From Ganoderma boninense (taxonomy: Eukaryota; Basidiomycota; Agaricomycetes; Polyporales; Polyporaceae), in the NCBI GenBank assembly GCA_002900995.3, contig CM035304.1, positions 3,070,823 through 3,134,822 of the forward strand: a DNA stretch of 64,000 bases, given 5' to 3'. Made by a program: the position numbers and the translations under genes. Shown here piece by piece: positions 32,211-61,628 of this stretch. Under the pieces are notes generated by a model. That model was not told the origin of the DNA and ran no database searches. It saw only the letters and a program-made list of their open reading frames with translations. Every line of letters begins with the position of its first letter. Within the stretch, counting starts at the first letter, position 1.

Positions 32211-35200
32211 ATGACCAGTTATGGTGCCGGATCCGACTCGACTTCATTCTCGAGAGACACGTCGTTCCCCGGTGAGCATGCCCCCAGACTCGACCCATAC
32301 GCAGCATTACGACATTTGAACGCCGCGCGAGCTACCGCGGCTTGGACGGCTTCTCCGCTTTCGAGCAGCCCCAATGCGGGGAAGTCACTGTCGCCCGCCC
32401 TTCTTCCCGTCCCTGCCCAGACGTCCACGGGAGCTGAACGCCATCCCCTCGATCGAAGTGATGAGAAGCTCGTCAACGCGCCCCCTCCCAAGAAAGCAAA
32501 GTTCAGCAAGACGATTGTAAGTTTCCCTCAGTTCATTTGTATGCGTTGCATTCTAATGAGCATCGCGACAGCCTGTCGGCAATCGCCTCAAGACGTTTCT
32601 GGACATGGCGCCTCAGGCCCAGTGGGCAATGCTCGCCCGCGAGGCCGGGCCACCGCGCGCCGTTGAGTGCCCACGGCCACACACCCCGCCACCACACCCG
32701 GAGCAACTCCCCGAGGACGCAGCTGTGTTTCGTTGCTTCGATTGTTACCACGCCCCCATCATCTGTAAGGATTGTCTCATTCGGGACCACGTTCGCAACC
32801 CCTTCCATCGCATCGAGACGTGGACGGATGCCGCGGGCTTCTGGGAGCGGATCTCTCTTGGACAGCTCGACGGCTTCTCTCTCAACCTCGGCCATGCTGG
32901 CAGGGAATGCCCTTCGCATGACGACAAACGGCTCATGACGATCGTACATGAACACGGCATCATCGAGATGAATGTGCGGTTCTGCGCTTGCCTCCCGAAA
33001 GGAGAACGGTTCGCGGTTCCCGAGCCAATCCAACTGCTGCGTTTCGGGTTGTTTCCTGGTACATGGAAGAAGCCCATGACCGCGTTCATGATCAACGGCT
33101 TGCGCAACTACCACCTCCTCTCCCTTCAGTGTCAGATTACGGGGATCGACTTTGCCGTGTATCTGCAACGCTCCACCGATAGTGTCCTATCCCACGAGGT
33201 CACCGTAAGTCGTGTCCGAAGCTATCTTTACGATCATCCTAACTGACAGTCGTCATCGTCCATAGGACAGACACCGCGAACTCAACGAGTCAATGCGGGA
33301 ATTCATGTTTTTACGGTCCACGAGGCGTGCAAGGCAGGAGCCAAAGATGACGTTAGATACCGGGAGCTTAGCAGTCCTTTGTCCCGCTTGCCCTCAACCC
33401 CACAAGAACATGGATCCCAATCGTCATCTTGAGGATGAGGACTCGTATGTCTACGTCACCTAGATCTATGGCCATGTACTGATTACCCGCAGGTACCTCG
33501 ACATGCTCTTCTACACAATTGACGGCAATTTCCAGGCCGCGCAAAAGTTCAAGCCTATGGACATGACTGACTTTCCCCTGACGACCGGCAGATCGTATTA
33601 TGCCCCGGAGCATGATTACGAGATTTACCGTACCAATCTGCCTCCACGCCGCAAAGAGGTGAGTGTAGACTATCTGATGTTTAATTTGTCTGACCGCGAA
33701 CACCTCTGGTCAGCCAACTAGCTGTCGCAAGTTCGGGGCGATGGGTTATTCCCGCTACAAGGGGCGCGTGAGTGGCGTTGTGGGGCTATCGTGTGCGCGA
33801 CACATGTTTGTTTTTCCTTGTGGCACTGTTGACATCCTGGGCGGTGAGGGGTGAGTTGTCCGACATGCTGCTGGCTATTCATACTGACTTACATCATTCA
33901 GCTTTGCTTATGCAGACTATTGCATGTGCGCCGGGTTGCGACCGTACATATGCCTCAAGCGGCATCATCGCGGATACGATATCAATTGTCAATACACGAT
34001 TTATCTCTCCGACCGCCTCCGTGCTATCCATGAGAAGCATCACAACCTTCCAACCATCCAAGCTGTCTATTTCCCTTGGACCATGGTCGGTATCGGCAAA
34101 TTCCACGTGGCGGCACACCAGGAATCGTGTCGCTCGAGGTACTCTTACTACTATCTTCCCGGCTCTGGTATGACGGACGGCGAGGCTCCCGAGCGGATCT
34201 GGGCGTCCCTCAACAATCTGTCAACGCGAACCAAGGAAATGTCCTCCGGTCACCGCCACGATGTCATTAATGACTATTACGGCGACTTGAACGTCCGGCG
34301 CGTCCACAACATGCGTGCGTCAGAACCTGTTTTGTAACTTGTCCTAGACTTAGTTTGGCATGTAGATAACACTCTCGCTGTCCGAATGGACCGCGCGATA
34401 GTTGAAGAGGCCCGCACCCAAGAGTACCTGGCGGAGTTGGAGGAGAACATCCTGGCGGAAAGCCTCGCTCGGTGGCGTGTTGATGAGGCGAAGTGGAAGG
34501 AGAATGTCGAGCATCTCGAACGTGATGGCGCAAATTTCGAGAGCCCGTATGAGTTGAAGAAGCATCAAGGTATGCTCAGACACACCATTCCCGTTTTTGA
34601 TCAATTCTAATCGGCTGCCAGCTGTCTCTCCTACGGAACTTCTTGCCTCTCTCGTGAAGAAGAGCGGGTTAACAGGCGAGTCCGCGGCGTCTTTGTTCGG
34701 CGTTATCGAACGCGGCGTCGAGCTACAGCAGGAAAGGTACACTGGGGCCTGTCTAGTATTTTTGAGCATGGCTAACACTTCATTCGACAGGGAGGCTTTG
34801 TTAGACATCCTCGCGAAAGATAACAGAGGGAACTGGAGGGAGATCTCTTTGCGATGCGAGACATTTTTTGTAGAGGTCGAGCGCTGGCAGGCGCTTCGAG
34901 ACGTCTATCTAGGTTCTCTCATCGAAGATGCAACATCAAGTGCACAAGCCGCCATGCAGCCACGTCAAAATCTTCGTGGTCCTAGCGTCGATGCCCTTCA
35001 ACCCTCGGAGTCTGAGCTACCCTCATCGCCCGACTTCCCATCCAGCTTCCCTCTACGGGACGTCTCTGCGGACTTCCGTGAGTCCAGTGACGGCCTTCCT
35101 CGGCAGCGACATGCCCACGGCAAGCCGGACAGTTGGAAAGAAGTCTTTGATGTCACCATCCTCCTCCCTTCATCATATCATCCCACTATTTGCGCACAGC

Positions 35201-42115: not shown

Positions 42116-45100
42116 TTACACCGGGGGTCGGTACGGAAGCATAAATGCCATTATCATGCAGTCCATCCAGCTGATCGGAATGAGCATACTGCATGTGTAC
42201 GACGTCAAGGGTTGACTCACCTGGTTGACGCATTCAGCATAGCATTTCAACGTCGTCACTCGATTCTTCAGCCTCTGCGAGCGAAATGCTTGTCTACTCA
42301 GAAGTATTAGTGCCTCCAGAGCCTCTCAGCCGCGCAAGTTACCTTCGAGCATAAGCCGCAGCTCCTTCACGACCATGCTTCTCATGGTCCAACGCACGCA
42401 TAATCCATTCTTGTTCGTACCCCGCAAAGAACTGTGCGCACCGGTATATCTCTTCGCGCCGAGTCTTCAGCTCCTCTGTCCAACGCTGGACGAGCGACTG
42501 GTGGCGGAACCAATGTACTCGCATGCCTGCAAAACCGCTATTAGCATTAGCGCGTCTGTCCAACCCAAGTTTGTCACTGACTAGCTTCTAGGAAGGTGCG
42601 CATCTCGCCCTCCTTGGCCTTCTTGACAAATGAAAAATCTCCCCAGATCCAAGAGGGAAGTCTATAGCTATCACCAAGGCGCTGTTCCCCTGTTGTTAGG
42701 GTGAACGCGCATAGGTCACTGTCGCGCAGTTCCTTGAACTTGCCATGGTCCTGGGACATACCCAAGACAAGCATGACATGTCGAATGGCGCGATACCTAT
42801 CCCTGGCGCGATGTTGCGCCAGTCGTTTGTTCTCGAGTCGTCGATCTATGGCTGTATTGTGTCGAACTCCAGATCCTTGCTTCCGTCGTAGTTCAAGTGT
42901 TTCGTATGTAGCAAGTTGCAAGCGGAGATCTTCTAAGGCCTCATCAGCCTGGCCTTCACGAAGCGCTAGTTCAGTTTGAATGGCTTGCGACATATCCGAA
43001 TGTCCTCGAATTTTGCTGTGGTATGCAGATGGAAGGAGAACGAGAGGTTCTGCTAACTCCTCCGCCATGGCCGCGAGAGCCTTCTGGGTGCAGGATTGAG
43101 GTTTGCGTTTTTTTTTCAGAGGTTCGTGCGTTGTGAAGACAATTCCGTGCTCGGCGTCGTCTTTGGGGTCACGTTTGGGGAACGTGAGCGGTACTAGGTT
43201 GGGTTCCACAGCTTTGCACGCCGAGCGAACTGCTAATCCAAGCCATTGGTCGCATAGCTCTTGACATGCTCGCCCGTCGGCTCTGTACGTCTCCATCTTC
43301 TTACCGATAGCTGTTCGATCGCTCTCCGTGCCCTGGGAAGCCTCGATTTCACTTTGTAAGTCCAGACTGCTCTGTTGTTAGCGTGACTCTGTCGTTAGTC
43401 GTGTAGTGATGCATTGCTCACCGTGTGTCCTCTAGGAGCAGGGCTGACCGAACCGCTGCGACAATGCCAATACCGTCGAGGTCTCCATTACCAGCTCGCT
43501 TCTCGTTCAGCTGTTCAGCAATGGTGGCCACACTGAGTACTGTGACGCAAAATGATGTTATCAACTTGTTCAAGTTTATTCTGTGGCAATGGTTCATACC
43601 TGCCTCCATGGGTGGCTCAAATGGATTGTCGAGGTCTTTGTGTTTGCTGACATCTATGACATTACGAGACCATTTCGCGTGTGCTTCACGCCATTTGAGA
43701 AGTGTTCCCTTCGGGAAGCGGTCTTCTACTGATGCCTCAACAGTCTCCAGATACTCTGTACATGCGACCAAACGTTCTTCGGCAACCTCCAGCTTCTGAG
43801 AGATTTCTCGAGCTTAATAAACAGGTGAGCTGCTGGAAATCAGGCTAGAATATACATGTTTTCACCTAAACCATGGACACGGCGCACGTTGTGATCGCCA
43901 TATAGGTCATTGAGTGCATCGTGACGATGCCCTGCAGACATCTCCTTCGTCCGACGTGAAACCGCATTTGTAATACCCCACAACCTTTCGCAGGTTTCCC
44001 CACAATCCATGCATGCGCCTGGAAGATTGTGCAGTGAGAACAGAGGACGGCATGATGGTTTGTGCATGCTCAAGTGATACTTCCCGACCGCCGCAATGAC
44101 GTCAGGAATGTTCACGGCCTTGATGGACTCGAGTTCATCAAGCATTGCTGGAGGAAACTCAGCTTGCAAGCGTTCGCGGAAGTGAATTATGTATTGACAG
44201 TAGATGTCGTAGGAGCCGATGAGGAGCTTCAGTCGCAAGTATCATTGTAGCGCTGATACTTTGGCGAAATCGACATAGATGTATCTGTGTTCAATGAGCG
44301 CAGTTGCCGGTATGTGTAGAAGACATTCTCTCGTACCTTTCGGCTGTGTTGAGATCCACAACGCCCCCTTGCATGACCATCATATGCCGACAAACAACTG
44401 CAATGATGCCTGACACTGGTCCCTTGTACTTGCCGGATCCCATTGCAGCAAACTCATTGCACGTCGAAGTCTGCAAGGGGTTACGATGCCCGTGAACGGC
44501 CGTAATTGCTCGTGCAAGCGATCACGTACTTCATGTTTCGGTTGAGGTGCCTTCCGCAAAATCTTCTGGAAGTCTGCACCATGCACGAAGTAGGCAGCGG
44601 TTTGTGTGAGGGGAAAGTCGTTCGGGTCCGTTTGCTTCGGTTTCAGGTTGAAGTGGAAGTTGCCATCGATGGAGTAGTGAAGCGCATCGAGGTATCTGCG
44701 TGTCACCAGGTCAGAACTCCGCGCAGCCCATGCGAGGTGTATCTTACTGGTAGTCCTTTTCACGATGTTCCCAGCCTGGCCTCATGTTTCGTTCCGGCTG
44801 CGGGCAAGCCGGGCACAGCACAGCGAGACTTCCGATTGGCATATTGCGACCAGGCTCAACTCCCGCGCGTCGACAGGCTCGCACATAGGTGAACAGACGA
44901 TATGAGTTGTTGAATTCACGATATCTATCCTGTGATGTTGATCATTGCGAACATGTGAATGACCGAAAGTTAAACTTGTTAGACATGTACTCACCAACAC
45001 ATCTTCCGCTCCAACATTATCAGTTTGCCTTTTGATATGCGCCAGGTAGTCGTGCACATTCACTTGCCCATTGAGGTTGAGACTGTGAAAGGTCTCTAGG

Positions 45101-46042
45101 GCCGTGAGGGTGGTTGCAGATTGGGGTTGTTCCCATGTGGCAGGCCAGAGACCAGCGAGCATGAGCTGGTCGACGTTCGGCCTGGCATCCCGACATGCAC
45201 AGTACACGACGGGCAGTGACATCACACCGTGTTCGTGTATGATGACCATGTTGCTGGCGTTGGAGAGGGCGTTTTCGCATCGTCGTCCTTGGTGACCCAG
45301 TCGGAGCTCGTATCCAAGTTGCGCCAAGTTAACCTTCATCCAAAATCGTTCTGTGACGTTCCACTGGAGGATCCGGTCGAACGGGCGATTGGAGTGGGAA
45401 GTGCAAATACATCGGATACACTGTATTGATGCCACCGCACAATCTTTACATCGGAAAAGGGTTCGAAACGGTGTGGGATTGCTGTCAAGCGAACCAGTAC
45501 ATCGTGGGCATTGTTCAAGCGATGCAGGTGGGGCTTCTAGCTCGTTCAACAGATTTCGTGCGTGTAAGGCATGCCCTTCATCCAAATGCTTAGCGCATCT
45601 GGCCGAGGGCTTCAAATTATGTCCTGGTATGAGCGTAAATGCGCTGTGGTAGTAACAATACACGCACCAGGTGGTATCTGACATCAATCCCATCTTCTTC
45701 CCCTGGTTCGTCGTCTTCACTGTCACCGTCATCGCTCCCCTGCGGTTGGCTAACCATCAGTTCGTAGCTGTCTTGAGACATATTCGAGACAGCAGGTACA
45801 CACGCAGGTTGGAAAGCAGGCTCGTGCGAGACATCAGTGAGTGAGTCGGCTGTACACCCGAGCGAAGTGGACGAGGAGTGCATTCGGGGGACTTTCGATG
45901 TCGTGGATGGCCCTTGTTGGCTGGCATGGGGTGACCGTTGGAACAAGTGCTTCAGGGAATATTTTTTCGGTGTCGTTGGCAGATCCCGCCGAGCGCGTTT
46001 GCATGATAGGTTTTCTTGGATCGATTTCAAGCCGGGGAACAT
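42116..46042 (-). CDS. KDZ-superfamily transposase with CxC2 cysteine cluster (element B)
   Basis: Transposase of the same superfamily as 32211-36065 but clearly divergent. Likely start MFPGLKSIQENLSCKRARRD at 46042. The N-terminal part is disordered and acidic (DDGDSEDDEPGEEDG). Next comes the CxC2 cluster (RCKDCAVASIQCIRCICTSH, then VIIHEHGVMSLPVVYCACRD) and the catalytic core: LHYSIDGNFHFNLKPKQ (Asp), FAAMGSGKYKGPVSG, SYDIYCQYI (Asp), GKYHLSMHKPSCRP, DCGETCERLWG (Glu), RTKEMSAGHRHDALNDLYGD. The helical C-terminus has LRDSDLCAF and SWIWGDFSF as in element A, then RVHWFRHQSLVQRW and AYARRQAF. Many introns of about 50-60 bp interrupt it. The last exon, reached by a GTAACT...AG intron near 42301-42352, opens QAFRSQRLKNRV. 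The end may be at 42116-42118 or earlier if a further intron is used. All signature residues are present. Confidence 0.85.
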
Positions 46043-54627: not shown

Positions 54628-56587
54628 ATGGCCCCACCCTCCGATCCCCGTCTGGTGATTTGGCGTTCGGAGTACAAGGAGACGAAGAAGAGTGCGTACT
54701 GTCCCATTGTGCGACAGTTATGTCACATCGACGCAACCAACCGAATTCCGCCTGCTCCGGAGAAGTGCCCTTCATGCGACTACGCGTTCGGCACTTTTGC
54801 CGCGTTCCTCACCTATAAAGCCGAACAGGCTGGAATGTGGCTGTTCAAGGTGAGCACTGTGGGTAGCCTCGTCGCATCTTCGTTTCTCCATGAATTGCCC
54901 GCCGATGTCCAGTGCAACCAATGCGAAAGCATCTACCGCCCGCGCCAAGTAGGACCTTCGCCTGTCGTCGCCGAAGCTATCCGCAAGCAGCTCGAAGAAA
55001 ACGCTATGGCCTCTTTTGAGGCAGCTGCCCAGAAGGACGAAGACAAGGCTATCAAACAGGCTCTCATCCAGTCGAAGCGCGAGAGTCAGCAGAGGCAGAA
55101 GGCCATGCTTCACCAGGAGAAGGCAATGGCGTCCATCGACCGCATTCGCACTGACGCGTCTCGTGAGCATGAGAAAGACTTGCAGAAGGCATCAGGAAAG
55201 GCTGTTTTGGGAAAGGTGCATCGCACGACCATGTACGGTCGAGGAGATCTGTTGACTGTTGGTGTAGAAACCTGCGGTGCCGAAAACGCTGAACGTGGAC
55301 AGGGCGACCCCATGCGCCGTGCAGCTTATCAAAGTCATTCTGTGGTACCAGGTGAGGGCATCCCTTCGTCAGTGCGAACACGACTGACCATCATTGCCGT
55401 AGGCCAATGAACCCCCTGTACCACTCGAGCTCCAGGTCAACCCAACAGAGCCGTTCTACCTCTCTGATCACAACATCTTCTCTGATATTTGGAACGGCGA
55501 CGAGGTGAAGGCACTGGCGTGGTGCATCGAGCTCAATGCTTGGATAGCGGGTAAGGAACCGATCAGCATTGACGCGAAGACCCACATCCTGCTGGTGCGA
55601 CGCGATTTCACAGGCCATTGTCAGGGGTTTGGCACGGAGCTTCGCGTGCTACAGGCGATGCGGAGTTCAGATGGTCACCGCAAGGCATTCGCCGCTGACA
55701 AGGCGAGGAAGAAGATCATTCTTGGGCAGGCCGTCGAAGCTGAGTATATAAGGCTCGTCTTCTGGCACACAGTTAGTGGTCGCTTGCACTCTGTACTACT
55801 TGTATCGACACTGACAGGCGACGCCCCCAGAACAATGAGCCACCGATTGAAGAGACCACGCTTAAGGTTCGTGCCTTGAACGTTCCGCTAAAAGTCACTC
55901 AACCGTGTTCCATAGATCCACCACGAAATCAATGAATCTCACCCTCGTCCATCCCAAAGTTGCCTCCTGAGGCTGAGCCACCAAATCTTTGAGCTTCTCC
56001 GCACGCGTCACGAGGCCACCGTCGACGTATACGTCGACACTGTCAGCGACTGGAAACCTTTCACCATCCGGTCCAACATACCTATTGACGGATCTCCGCA
56101 CACCCTACTCGTCCGCCTTCCCAGTGTCGTCGGCATGCCGCACCTTGGTGTGGAGATCGAAGCACTTCGTACGCCTACATCCAAGGCTGGCAAGACGGGT
56201 ACGAAGCGCTCTCGGCAGACGTCATCGACCTCGCAGAGTTCCAAGCACGTCTCTGACGATAACGCCAAGGCTTTGGCGTACCTTGCCGAGTTCGATTCTC
56301 GTTCACGGTCTTCGTCTGTGGAGTCCTGGCACCCGGGGACCGAGACCTTGGGAAACCACCTGGCAGCTGGCATGCGTCATGCGTCGGCGGGTCCGTCATC
56401 GGCCGCCAGCAAGGTGCAAGGCAGTGATGACGCCTCGGCAGCAGACGAGCGGACTGTACTAGGGCGAAGGAATGCAAAGAAGGTGAAGGTGGAGCACGGC
56501 GAGGTGAAGTTGAACTGGCAAGAGGCTGAAACAGTCAAGAATGGACAGACGGTAATTGACTTGAGCATGCTGTACGGCGATGAGTAG
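54628..56587 (+). CDS. KDZ cargo 3 (element B): zinc-ribbon protein
   Basis: Counterpart of 22436-25415. Start MAPPSDPRLVIWRSEYKETK at 54628. The zinc ribbon is CPIVRQLC...KCPSCD, then, after a phase-0 intron (GTGAGC...GTCCAG, about 54850-54919), CNQCESIYRPRQVGPSP, at the same intron position as in element A. A long charged helical region follows (AAAQKDEDKAIKQALIQSKR, then QQRQKAMLHQEKAMASIDRI), a likely coiled coil. Further exons carry PLELQVNPTEPFYLSDHNIF and HTLLVRLPSVVGMPHLGVEI and a Ser-rich tail ending DLSMLYGDE, with stop TAG at 56585-56587. Introns were seen near 55352-55402, 55770-55830 and 55869-55916. The C-terminal half differs much from its element A partner. A nuclear role is likely from the ribbon and basic patches (GTKRSRQTSS, GRRNAKKVKVE). 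Confidence 0.6.
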
Positions 56588-57018
56588 ATGACACAAAAGG
56601 TTCCTCAGTTGTACACGAAATATAGGGTTACATAAACCGGTATCCGAGAAGAAAATTGGCCAACTGTACAGAACCTGGGAATCGTGCGCAACCCGGCCTG
56701 TCGAACACGCACATCGTGGGTAACATCTGTAGGAAAGGAGTGACAATGTTTTGCATGAAGACGACCGACACCACGCCTTTTGTGTGCAACGTAGCACGAG
56801 GTCTCGATACGTCAGGTTGCCGTCCTCGATTGGACTGTTCTTGGCCAAACAACGATACGCGGTTCGCTCGGTGCCATTGAAAATGACCAACATATGGACG
56901 TGACAAGGGACTAATCTGCACCATTGACAGCCTAGAAATATATTCAGACGCAAGTTAGTCGACACGTTGACACAGAACGGCACCGAGTTCTGATCTCAAT
57001 TGACAAGGCAGGCAAAAG
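56588..57018. other. Intergenic, no gene recognised
   Basis: Short spacer between cargo 3 and the minisatellite. No exon or repeat is supported. Confidence 0.4.
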
Positions 57019-57536
57019 TGGGCCGCCGGGACAGGACACCACCGTGTCAAGCCCGACGACCATCACCCACCGGCGCGCACTTCAAGGAGCAAGAAGAGGA
57101 GCAAGAGAAGTGGGGCGGCGAGACAGGACACCTCCGTGTCAAGCCCGACGACCATCGCCCACCGGCGCGCACTTCGAGGAGCAAGAGAAGTGGGCCGCCG
57201 AGACAGGACACCTCCGTGTCAAGCCCGACGACCATCGCCCACCGGCGCGCACTTCGAGGAGCAAGAAGAGGAGCAAGAGAAGTGGGGCGGCGAGACAGGA
57301 CACCTCCGTGTCAAGCCCGACGACCATCGCCCACCGGCGCGCACTTCGAGGAGCAAGAGAAGTGGGCCGCCGAGACAGGACACCTCCGTGTCAAAGCCGA
57401 CGACCATCGCCCACCGGCGCGCACTTCGAGGAGCAAGAAGAGGAGCAAGAGAAGTGGGGTGGCGAGACAGGACACCTCCGTGTCAAGCCCGACGACCATC
57501 GCCCACCGGCGCGCACTTCGAGGAGCAAGAGAAGTG
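57019..57536. repeat. Minisatellite with alternating 92- and 80-bp units
   Basis: The phrase GTGTCAAGCCCGACGACCAT recurs at 57044, 57136, 57216, 57308, 57388 (one base altered) and 57480, so the steps are 92, 80, 92, 80, 92 bp. Long units have an extra 12 bp (AAGAGGAGCAAG) and mostly GGCGGCGAGACAGG, while short ones have GCCGCCGAGACAGG. The true period is therefore a 172-bp dimer. All frames on one strand are open, but only because of the repeat. It ends about 320 bp before the histone-mimic start codon. Confidence 0.92.
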
Positions 57537-57856
57537 GAATAGAATAATAGACTGTGAGTGCTGACCTCGCTGTCACCATACGGCCTGCTCTTGAGAAGCA
57601 TATAAGAAGTTGAAGGGTTAGAGCCACGCGGTGTGTCTTGCCACCTCTGGTCTGTCGTGGACGTGTTCGGGAGGAACGAAAGGATGAACCTGAAGCGCCG
57701 AAAGGTGTCGCCACGCGAACGAGTGGAGGCGCCCACCTGAGCTGGCACCCGCTTCGCACCGCCCAAAGTTGCGTGGACATTCTTCTTCTAAGTACTTCCA
57801 CTTCAACACCTTCCAGATCCACACTTTCGGCTGCTCGTCTCAGTCCAGTTAGTACC

Positions 57857-60039
57857 ATGGCACGCACCAAGCAGACCGCGCGTCGCAGCACAGGAGGTAA
57901 AGCACCCCGAAAGTGTCCGAGTACGTCCATGTCGTTTTCAAGCTGTCCGAGCCATGCTGACTCTCCCCCACCAGATCCGGAACCCACCTATGTTTCTTCG
58001 GGGGAGGAAGATCAAACGCGAGACCAGCGCAGACAACGTAAGTTCTTTGCTCGCTTCGTGCGCATAAGAGGTTCAACGGCTTGTAGCTGCCAGGGAGGCT
58101 AAAGCAAAACGCCCCAAGTTCGATGAGACCGCGACAGACGCTGAGCTTGAGGAAGAACCCCCCAACGAATATCTTGCAATCGAGATAGACCAGGAGTCCA
58201 ACGTCAAGAACACCGCTGCCAGCCTCGCCCAGAAGAAACGCACGCAGAAGGAGCCGAAGGAGAAGGAGCCGAAGGAGAAGGAGCCGAAGGAGAAGGAGCC
58301 GAAGGAGAAGGAGCCGAAGGAGAAGGAGCCCACAGGTCCACTGAACTACGTCGAGACTTCCGATGTAGTACGTCATTCCAAAGCATCAATGTTGTAAACA
58401 AACCTGATGCAGCATGCAGTTCTGCTTCATATGTCAAAACGGAGGCAATCTCATCACATGTGATGAACGCGGTTGCGGGCGCGTGATGTGCTTGTCCCAC
58501 GCGCCCAAGATAGCGTCGTTGGAAGTAGAGATCCTCGACACGCTGCACTTTCATTGTCCTTCGTGCCATACACTGAAGAGTCGCGCGGAAGCGAAGCAAG
58601 CCGAGGAGGAACCCAAGGCCCCGTCGTCCTCACTGAAAGCCAAGCGCGCACATACGACTGCGAAGCAGTCGGACGCGCCCAACCGCCAACCTACCATGCA
58701 CGGGCAACACGTGCAGAAGGGAAAACCTGATCCCAAATACAAACCTGCACTTCCGTACCACGTAAGTCCGACATATTCTAGCCACCGCCGCTTTCCACTA
58801 ACCAATCTGAAGGGTGTATATCACCCGGGAACCGACCGTCCTTACTTCCCGGAGTGGGTGCCCCTCACAATGTCTTCCACTCGACCTCAGCACAGTCGAG
58901 TGGACACACGCCCATTGGTTATTTTGAACATCCGCCTCGCCACGCTCCGAGAGAGGAGTTCGCCAGCCAGACTCGTGTACCACCTTCTGACGCCATGGTT
59001 TGATGGCCCGGCAAGGAACAACCTACGCTACATCGACCTACCATTCAACGTCCCCAGACCAGATCCAAACGCCAAGACGAGCCCTCTCAAACAAACCCCC
59101 GAAGCCCAATTTCGAGCGCGCACTAACAGGCATCTCAAGAGCTTGGGCGAGTACGTCAATACTTTCTTGCTCGAGTGTGGCAGGCGCTGACAGGCTTGTG
59201 CCAGGATCAATGACGCGCGAATCTTCATCTTCATCTACACCCATTCTCACGACGAGTACGGCGACCTGTATTATGGAGAGGAGTACTCGTCCTGCAGCGT
59301 AGGAGAAGTAAGTAATCTGATGAAACACACGACTGTACACTAACCATGCAAGCGTAGTGGTGGAACGACATGATGACTCCAAAGCTCGCGCAGATTGCAT
59401 CTAGCGGCAACAACGAGATCTACGTCGCCATGCTCGCCTGCGGGGCACTTGTTTTGCACCAGACTGCGCGTACCGAGCTTATGTCCGCCCTAGACGGGTA
59501 AGACATCCTCTCTGCGATTTCTGAGTCGTCTGACCGTGATTATCCATAGCATTCACGTAGCCCACGCCTTCGGGTTTTCCACGAAGGAACTGCAGCCGTC
59601 CCTGACCTCTCTGTTCTTCTACAACTTCATCCATCAAGTGCTCATTGAAGGGATGCCTCTCACTGACCACAACATGGCGACTCGTCTTGAACAAGCTGTC
59701 TTCGTCGCCCGCCACACGCCGCTCTTTCACTTTCACTATGCCGAGGAGGAGGACTCCCCCCCGAAACTGAGCGTTGTCGAATACCGGTGGACGCATAACA
59801 CGATGCGACCAAACGGACAGGACATTGGTGTTCAGTGCCCTCAATGCGGCACGCTCTCCTCAAGAGATGGCAAGAAGAAGACAAACAGCAAGGGTGAGAC
59901 CGAAATTGTCGTGTGGTGCAAGATCACCGACTGCGACTGGGAAGAGACGTACATAATACGGGACAAAGTCAAGGACCTCCGGACAGGAGAAAAGGGGGTT
60001 TGGACTGTTCGTGACTTCAAGGAGCCCAAGAGCACCTAG
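57857..60039 (+). CDS. Histone H3-tail mimic fused to PHD finger, caspase/CHAT-like domain and zinc ribbon
   Basis: Eight exons: 57857-57920, 57975-58037, 58087-58367, 58420-58761, 58813-59150, 59205-59307, 59358-59497, 59550-60039. All introns are 49-54 bp GT-AG, several with clear branch sites, and they give one open frame of 606 aa. Residues 2-19 are ARTKQTARRSTGGKAPRK, equal to the H3 tail 1-18 except Arg for Lys9. Residues 97-124 are KEP(KEKEP)5. A PHD finger has C138, C141, C150, C155, C160, H163, C182 and C185. Residues 290-510 resemble a caspase/CHAT peptidase: the strand RIFIFIYTHSHDEYGDLYYG offers His376/His378 and YVAMLACGALV offers Cys425, followed by a helix-rich end with FFYNFIHQVL. 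A zinc ribbon uses C540, C543, C567 and C572. The PHD call is firm; the peptidase call is inference. It is the last gene of element B. The exposed Ala-Arg-Thr-Lys N-terminus would need Met removal, as in H3. TATAAG at 57600 is a possible core promoter. Confidence 0.85.
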
Positions 60040-61628
60040 TATGCCTACTCCAACCTGTCTGCGATGGAAAATGCCGCTTCTGATCTGACGTACTGCTTAC
60101 TTTCGGATCCTCGAACTCACTGTGATTCCAGCGATGCCCCACACTCCTTTACGACACTGCTGCCTAACTTTTGTGACTCGTATTCCCAGCTGACATCCGA
60201 GTCCCGCATAACAAGTTGCCAGTTGTCTCGGCAGACCCGCATCACTTCTGATGTGAACCACGCTCGTTTTGTGTCCCTGTCGTACAGTACTACATCCCAG
60301 ATAATTGTCATTAGGTTCGACGGTTGATTTTTACATGCGTGGGTACCTGTGCATGTTAATATGCCGCGCTTGATCTGCACCTTGCCGGTGGAGTACGCGA
60401 TGCGTCTGCAGAGCAGCTCAGAATCAGAGACAACAAAGTCATCGGACGTTAGCATATTGAGCAGCATAAGGAGCGCCATCGCCATCTTGCCTATCCGCAG
60501 TACCTGCACCGCGCCAAGTGATGAATGCGGCTACATTGCAGTAGTACAGTAGGGAAGACAGTTCACACCTATCGACCGCAACTTATAGATTTTACGGCTC
60601 GCAAGATGGCGACCCCACGCGCAGTGCAGCTGTCGAAACCTGGATAGACATCGACGAGCCACACGCTAGTGCGCCTGCGCGCGATAATCCTATGGTGTCC
60701 CATGCCACTTCTCATTGCCATGCTCCAACCAAAGGACGAAATGGCACGCGCCAGACGCGCGTCGGCGTGCCCGCGCACTGTGCAGTCAGTAGTATGCCCG
60801 ACGTACATGCGGACAGTCCACAGGACCTGATTTCGTCCTTTGTGGCATGCCCTAGAGCGTCCTACCACGCCAGACACTAGGGCAATTTCATACACATACA
60901 TACCGCGACCAGCGGCCTCGGGGGATGTCCACCGTGAAGTACCCCAGACCCAGCTGCGGTGCACAGTGGTGGCAGTATCGATGATCCGCGTCGGTAGTCG
61001 CATGCCGCGTGCAGAGACAACGAGGGAGGCATGTTACAGTTACGTTGCGCTTTCGAACCGCCAACGCTTCCCAGCACTTCTACGCAATCCGCATGAAGCC
61101 AACAACTGCCGAGCCGGAACACTGCAAATTGTACTCAGTGCTGCCCATACGACCCGTGGTCTCGGCTGGTCTCTGTTGATGCCTACCTTTCGTGCGTCAT
61201 ATCCAATCGCCATGGATGGAGATGTTCAGACATCTTGACGTCATAGATCGCCCGTGAAACTCACGGAAGGGTTGTGCTCGGTCAACCACTGACCAGGATC
61301 AACGCGGGTGGTACCTGCGTCAACACCAGTCTCGAGAGACCTGCGGGCATAGTTCATGCTAGGGAAAACGGGCATCACAGAACAATCGCGCAGACGTCCT
61401 ATGAGTGGCAGGGCCACGAATGTCACGGCGCATCGTGCGAGTTCTGCTTCGGCCTCATTCGGCCTTGAACGAGAAATGCTAGGCTCAATCTAGCTGTTCG
61501 CGTTCAACCTAGATATGGTCAAGCAGATGAGCAACCGTATATCATGTAGATCAAAGACTTGTGCAATGTGGCATAATACATAAAGAGGGACAGGGCGAGA
61601 AAGACGAAGTACATGTCCAGACGGCACT
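60040..61628. other. Gene-poor right flank of element B
   Basis: No gene is supported. An open stretch at 60064-60327 (+) begins MENAASDLTYCLLSDPRTHC but has no family resemblance or intron evidence. The outer end of element B may lie here or further right; I could not find a repeat matching sequence near 42.05 kb. Confidence 0.4.

Follow-up and report, generated by a model that had tools for sequence, protein, structure and literature searches.

A gene whose product begins like histone H3

What is the amino-terminal tail of histone H3 doing at the start of a protein that is not a histone? The question is raised by a gene of Ganoderma boninense that lies in a stretch of 64,000 nucleotides, hereafter the window (contig CM035304.1, positions 3,070,823 to 3,134,822 of the forward strand; C1:3070823-3134822 in our genome search). 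Judged by sequence comparison, the tail is a genuine, conserved H3 mimic. The protein that carries it very probably joins three modules, namely the H3 tail, a zinc finger of the type that reads H3, and a caspase/CHAT-like domain.

The gene starts at the ATG at 57857 on the forward strand (+), which is the earliest in-frame ATG downstream of an in-frame stop. Following the initiator methionine, the protein reads ARTKQTARRSTGGKAPRK, in which 17 of 18 residues equal those of H3 and the sole change is K9 to R. Eight exons, separated by seven introns of 49-54 nt that are all GT-AG, splice in frame to give a protein of 606 amino acids. Both the H3-like N-terminus from the first codon and the eight-exon structure had been proposed in an initial annotation of this DNA, and both are borne out by the gene model.

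Within the 55.6 Mb of the genome that was searched (74 contigs), the protein body occurs at at least 10 loci, the window included. Six of these copies have a 5' end (the window gene, C12a, C9, C13a, C1b and C2); all six carry the tail and have a 64-nt exon 1. Additionally, the intact paralogue C9 has exons of 338, 103 and 140 nt that match the window gene in length. Because exon lengths are kept in this way among the copies, the gene model is supported independently of RNA. A Pfam scan of the window protein returned no histone match behind the tail, and models of homologues predict a caspase-like fold there instead.

The family in other fungi

When the query was limited to residues 130-606 of the window protein and so excluded the tail, six proteins were found, belonging to Ganoderma leucocontextum, G. 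sinense and Earliella scabrosa. The tail is present in all six and sits at residue 1 in five of them; in the sixth, P0005, it is preceded by 63 additional residues, possibly through an error of annotation. Six more proteins, P0008-P0013, came from a profile search whose query contained the tail; they belong to Ganoderma, Dichomitus squalens, Earliella and Mycena vitilis and again bear a tail in 6/6, although that of P0013 is interrupted by an insert. This second search is less independent, since the tail was part of the query; it also returned two true H3-like proteins (P0014 and P0015) and missed P0007, which was itself in the query alignment. One of the added proteins, P0009, is G. sinense GSI_12273, which is publicly named a peptidase S53 domain protein and has an extended C-terminus resembling a fused gene model.

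P0013 shares 22% identity with the window protein. Searching with its tail-free part yielded 17 Mycena proteins (P0013 counted), 13 of which have an H3-like tail; among these the tails of P0017 and P0019 are degraded and that of P0024 lies behind an extension. P0025, a fused model, has the second half of the tail only, and the three proteins with no tail (P0023, P0028 and P0030) are all truncated or partial models. Thus, the family spans two orders, the Polyporales (Ganoderma, Dichomitus, Earliella) and the Agaricales (Mycena). Because homologue searches made with the body alone still return proteins that bear a tail, the tail is more than a chance resemblance. The initial annotation had held that homologues consistently lacking the H3-like N-terminus would count against it; the two body-only searches found the opposite. 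A tblastn search of a phage collection with P0010 gave no match, as expected.

Conservation and constraint of the tail

To compare tails residue by residue, we aligned 28 of them by eye, 18 from polypores and 10 from Mycena. The set keeps the decayed C13a, the interrupted C22 and two pairs of near duplicates (P0002/P0005 and P0021/P0031). It omits P0013, P0016 and P0017, whose tails are split by an insert, as well as P0025, a tail fragment of 14 residues on C13, the three tail-less Mycena models and the Helitron-like copies described below. Two residues, T3 and G12, are constant in 28/28 tails. R2, Q5, A7 and A15 are each retained in 27, A1, K4, S10, T11 and P16 each in 25, and L20 in 24. ARTKQ is intact in 22/28 tails, while ARKST is intact in one (P0007).

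The positions that vary do so differently in the two groups. K9 is retained in 2/18 polypore tails versus 10/10 Mycena tails (12/28 overall), and R8 in 16/18 versus 4/10. K14 is retained in 9/18 polypore tails versus 0/10 in Mycena (9/28 overall), position 18 is lysine in 10/28, and Q19 is retained in none of the 28. The Polyporales and Mycena have thus lost the intact K9 site (ARKST) by different routes.

When the window gene is compared with C9, constraint is strongest in the tail, with proportions of nonsynonymous and synonymous differences (pN/pS) of 0.051/0.742. The corresponding values are 0.358/0.670 for the linker, 0.220/0.698 for the finger and 0.122/0.614 for the caspase-like region. 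In the comparisons with C1b and C2, which are more distant, pN of the tail (0.256 and 0.274) is about that of the finger (0.256 and 0.271), and the caspase-like region (0.388 and 0.354) is less constrained than the tail. Values for C12a are invalid, its model containing an apparent frameshift, and were not used.

At the codon level, the 18 tail codons of the window gene and the decayed C13a comprise 8 identical, 10 synonymous and 0 nonsynonymous pairs; against two host H3 genes, 5 are identical, 12 synonymous and 1 nonsynonymous. Apart from an upstream minisatellite, the DNA match of C9 and C13a to the 5' region of the window gene begins either at the ATG itself or 2 bp upstream, and for C12a a single alignment of 74% spans 57016 to 60061. 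The sequence upstream of the start codon (57541-57856) had no blastn match (E <= 1) to any of four host H3 loci. The codon comparison and this absence of a match lead us to reject the idea that an exon or promoter of a host H3 gene was captured recently. Together with the pN/pS values and the retention of the tail across orders, they point to old conservation of the tail at the coding level.

A PHD-like finger related to readers of unmodified H3

The finger follows the pattern C-x2-C-x8-C-x2or4-C-x4-C-x2-[H/C] with a final C-x2-C, a permuted form of C4HC3. The fifth and sixth ligands are C and H in polypores (order C4-C-H-C2) and C and C in Mycena, which gives eight cysteines. The initial annotation had described a complete C4HC3 PHD finger. 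A canonical C4HC3 PHD is ruled out by the ligand order, and Pfam PHD does not match the window protein even at E 10; the relationship to PHD fingers does stand on profile grounds, and we therefore refer to the finger as PHD-like. Pfam PHD matches 8/26 family members at E <= 0.01, the best at 9.6e-4, and P0021 scores 17.3 bits where the cut-off is 24.

We built a profile from 16 fingers and compared it with all PDB chain sequences. The leading matches were, in order, CHD4 (2.2e-7), PHF21A/BHC80 (3.0e-7), TRIM33 (4.1e-6), TRIM24, AIRE (3.3e-5) and ATRX. Overall, 30 distinct PDB sequences matched at E <= 0.01, the weaker ones including ZMYND11, TRIM66, NSD3, SP140 and TAF3, and profiles of the whole protein also recovered TRIM33 and CHD4. 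CHD4, PHF21A/BHC80, TRIM33, TRIM24, AIRE and ATRX all read the N-terminus of H3 when K4 is unmodified (K4me0), whereas TAF3 reads K4me3. The footprint of K4me0 readers consists of the free A1, R2 and K4, and it falls in the best-kept end of the family tail.

Thus, a ligand of H3 type and what appears to be the matching class of reader sit on one chain, and binding between them is predicted. The suggestion in the initial annotation that real H3 or the protein's own tail might be bound by the finger gains support here, because the nearest solved relatives of the finger are readers of the unmodified H3 N-terminus. Two AlphaFold2 models of homologues did not show the tail docked on the finger, as judged by confidence and strands only; in these models the predicted local distance difference test score (pLDDT) is below 50 for residues 1-13.

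A predicted caspase/CHAT-like C-terminal domain

The C-terminal half of the protein had gone unnoticed in the initial annotation. Models of homologues predict that it adopts a caspase/CHAT-like alpha/beta fold, and the best structural matches of the modelled domain belong to clan CD, including CHAT (SAVED-CHAT, 8tl0), caspases, MALT1 and metacaspases. A conserved His-Cys pair is located at the ends of core strands in these models. In P0010 the pair is H254 and C301, both invariant in 11/11 aligned members. In P0021, H225 is invariant in 26/26 members of an alignment (A3) that omits P0005 and P0030, and C274 is found in at least 90%, P0031, a gapped model, being without it. Neither Pfam Peptidase_C14 nor CHAT matches any of 26 family members at E <= 0.01. 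We regard the domain as a putative caspase/CHAT-like cysteine protease.

How the three modules might work together

Through their likeness to a histone, the proteins of this family probably perceive or regulate chromatin. Mainly because ligand and matching reader class share one chain, we propose, tentatively but ahead of the alternatives below, that the protease is gated by its own tail, which competes with real H3 tails for the finger. The first methionine would be removed, exposing A1 as in H3. The finger would then hold the tail of its own or of a neighbouring molecule, in cis or intermolecularly, self-recognition being the simplest reading, and the resting protein would be inhibited or assembled head to tail. 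Nucleosomal or free H3, or an enzyme acting on K4, would displace the tail and bring about release, after which the protease would cleave a chromatin or cell-death substrate. Loss of K9, and in part of K14 and K18, would blind the mimic to heterochromatin and acetylation marks while the constant "unmodified H3" end remains. A second contact, for example with the protease domain, is favoured because the conservation of S10-G12, A15-P16 and L20 exceeds the footprint of one PHD finger. Extended further, this proposal describes a histone-gated caspase-like protease with ligand, reader and executioner in one polypeptide, in which exposed or lost tails switch proteolysis. The ligand would be a K4-type H3 tail deprived of its K9 signal. 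Such a protease might serve as a chromatin-integrity checkpoint or for cell death in self/non-self recognition, and would be a device without a described precedent; we consider this extended version possible but doubtful.

Plant immune receptors use integrated decoys, and the tail could likewise be bait for an enzyme that targets chromatin and is foreign or selfish (from a virus, transposon or competitor), upon whose attack the protease kills or walls off the cell. Several features would suit a decoy: the family is multicopy and fast-diverging with decayed copies, the predicted caspase/CHAT-like effector fold is typical of immune executioners, and the tail is conserved out to L20, past the footprint of a single reader. 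However, a trigger would have to be postulated, and with K9, K14 and K18 kept in only 12, 9 and 10 of 28 tails the bait would be a poorer one for the corresponding writers. A decoy would also leave the co-occurring finger of H3-reader type unexplained, and we consider this explanation rather unlikely.

Slightly less likely again is a role as a recruitment tag, in which host H3K4me0 readers, writers or erasers (COMPASS, LSD1/CoREST-like or HDAC complexes) are bound through the tail, so that the protease reaches them or chromatin. The retention of ARTKQ, as opposed to the region of K9, fits such a role, but the protein has its own finger of the class in question, which makes an external reader unnecessary. 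A comparable case in mice is that of DPPA3, which is reported to bind the PHD finger of UHRF1 (PMC11187062).

We also considered that the domain clips H3 tails and that its own tail acts as a pseudosubstrate, either an inhibitory look-alike of the substrate or a pro-peptide. The similarity to H3 covers residues near the reported clipping sites, and L20 is kept in most tails. Clan CD enzymes usually require a defined P1 residue, however, and no invariant P1 candidate exists at 18-19, where Q19 is never kept and position 18 is variable. Although proteolysis of the H3 N-terminal tail is a known chromatin event (PMC10170761), a pseudosubstrate role appears improbable.

Genomic setting and the question of KDZ linkage

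The positions of the gene, its domains and its neighbours are collected in Table 1. Arrays related to the minisatellite lie upstream of C12a and C9, and blastn detected a piece of ~108 bp upstream of C13a; it is possibly a conserved promoter element. The companion gene also adjoins C12a, with weaker pieces near C9 and further pieces on C9 and C13. It matches no Pfam family over the cut-off and has weak CPxCG zinc-finger similarity under the cut-off. Because companion gene and minisatellite recur beside C12a and C9 (and a minisatellite piece beside C13a), the arrangement suggests that both were duplicated with the H3-tail gene as one unit.

Table 1. Features of the H3-tail gene and of its surroundings in the window.
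Feature	Position	Strand	Remarks
Exon 1	57857..57920	+	start codon and H3-tail mimic; A1-K18 at 57860-57913
Exon 2	57975..58037	+	linker; length equal in paralogue C9
Exon 3	58087..58367	+	linker; 15-bp tandem repeat at 58246-58330 encodes KEPKE repeats (Tandem Repeats Finder)
Exon 4	58420..58761	+	PHD-like finger at its start
PHD-like zinc finger	58423..58566	+	C138-C185; ligand order C4-C-H-C2
Exon 5	58813..59150	+	predicted caspase-like domain begins here
Predicted caspase-like domain	about 58906-59793, introns included	+	limits from alignment to the modelled homologue P0010
Exon 6	59205..59307	+	invariant His H376 at 59242-59244
Exon 7	59358..59497	+	conserved Cys C425 at 59439-59441
Exon 8	59550..60039	+	predicted caspase-like domain ends; zinc-ribbon-like cysteines C540-C572 at 59836-59934
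Minisatellite, 80-92 bp units	57016..57537		~320 bp upstream of the start codon (Tandem Repeats Finder)
Companion gene	54629..56587	+	upstream, same orientation as the H3-tail gene (blastn, genome search)
KDZ transposase remnant	33717-34292		
KDZ transposase remnant	43888-44497		
CxC2 cysteine cluster domain	in open reading frame 44785-45756		belongs with the second KDZ remnant

The initial annotation had placed the gene in a KDZ transposon neighbourhood and proposed that the tail protects or targets the element. Two KDZ remnants and a CxC2 domain are indeed in the window, but they lie at least 12 kb from the H3-tail gene. We compared the copies with KDZ positions from a genome-wide PF18758 search; the following figures hold among the matches listed, and the distances are upper bounds. 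KDZ was found within 10 kb of 0/10 copies and within 25 kb of 4/10, a number reached in 6% of trials with random placement. The median distance from copy to KDZ is 100 kb, compared with 140 kb at random (P 0.27). KDZ linkage is rejected as a general feature on the strength of the random placement and of the absence of any copy within 10 kb of a listed match. K9, the silencing residue, is moreover missing from 16/18 polypore tails, and a KDZ cargo that shields its element from H3K9-based silencing is very unlikely.

Least probable, with next to no chance of being correct, is passive capture of the first exon of an H3 gene, possibly together with the promoter, as a peptide without a role: a Helitron-like repeat did take up a tail exon of this same family as cargo, but in the comparisons with C9 and C13a synonymous change is near saturation while the protein has hardly changed, the tail is conserved across orders, and 57541-57856 is unlike the four host H3 loci.

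Other copies in the G. boninense genome are in various states of decay. The aligner flags frameshifts or stops in C12a (one), C13a, C12b and C22; C13a is decayed, C12b is decayed or fragmentary, and C16 is a C-terminal fragment. In C13b and C22 the tail exon lies 5-7 kb upstream of the body. C22 has 461-bp direct repeats, 99.6% identical, between tail exon and body (L050:411-6954), and their flanks (TCGGA) can be read as a 5-bp target duplication, which suggests that a young element resembling a long terminal repeat retrotransposon split the tail from the body.

The exact pattern MARTKQTAR occurs at 8 places in the whole genome, 3 host H3 genes and 5 family tails, and the reversed control pattern at 0. 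Two intact copies of a second subfamily, C1b (C1:1926043) and C2 (C2:171465), have K4R (ARTRQ) and thereby offer a natural test of whether K4 is needed.

Separately, a 1.5-kb repeat at C11:3090705-3092185 (L052:3706-5186), with further copies on C2, C17, C6 and C1, carries the H3-tail exon of the family as decaying cargo (MARTKQSARQY.., MDRTKQSAC..). It is Helitron-like, with a G+C-rich hairpin end followed by CTAG|T in 3/4 copies whose ends were read, and both of its ends recur ~1.0-1.4 kb apart at nine other places. A divergent H3 at C4:2063850-2064420, with 72% identity in 2/3 pieces, may be a centromeric H3.

Comparison with known systems and significance

The family finger shares most of its cysteine spacings with PHD/ADD fingers of the K4me0 type, along with the motifs N/D-G-G and C-D-x-C. 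It differs at ligands 5 and 6, which are C-x2-H in polypores or C-x2-C in Mycena as opposed to H-x2-C, and in having the ligand sequence on its own polypeptide. The predicted alpha/beta core and the His and Cys positions resemble those of clan CD proteins (CHAT, caspases, MALT1 and metacaspases), whereas the family lacks a caspase or CHAT match in Pfam and is fused to an H3 tail and a finger of H3-reader type.

Influenza NS1 and SARS-CoV-2 ORF8 are histone mimics that copy short motifs. Like them, the family represents a non-histone protein copying part of the H3 tail; unlike them, it keeps the ARTKQ end and mostly loses ARKST, and it is cellular and conserved across orders. DPPA3, a separate protein without a protease, takes the site of the H3 N-terminus on the PHD finger of UHRF1. 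This non-histone protein is reported to bind the finger and to move UHRF1 off chromatin (PMC11187062). In the fungal family, by comparison, the mimic is at the true N-terminus, covers H3 as far as residue 20 and has its own finger on the same chain.

The Kyakuja and Zisupton KDZ elements of Agaricomycetes encode TET/JBP (PMC12730594), and the main text of that study mentions no PHD, caspase, mimic or Ganoderma. The fungal setting is shared with these transposons and their chromatin-active cargo, but no copy of our family is within 10 kb of KDZ among the matches listed. Among the results listed, searches of the open-access literature yielded no description of a family with an H3 tail, a finger of the reader class and a caspase-like protease, although absence there is no proof of novelty, and Pfam matches of family members pointed to no known family joining the three modules. 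Each module is of a known kind, while the combination appears new.

If the proposed wiring is true, the family would represent a cellular histone mimic that has long been conserved and has its receptor built in, and through it the state of histone tails in fungi would bear directly on proteolysis or cell death. The 28 aligned tails would then form a natural set of variants revealing which H3 residues a K4-type reader needs. Additionally, the retention of ARTKQ against the breaking of ARKST, in various ways and in nearly every copy, makes selection against H3K9 methylation of the mimic testable.
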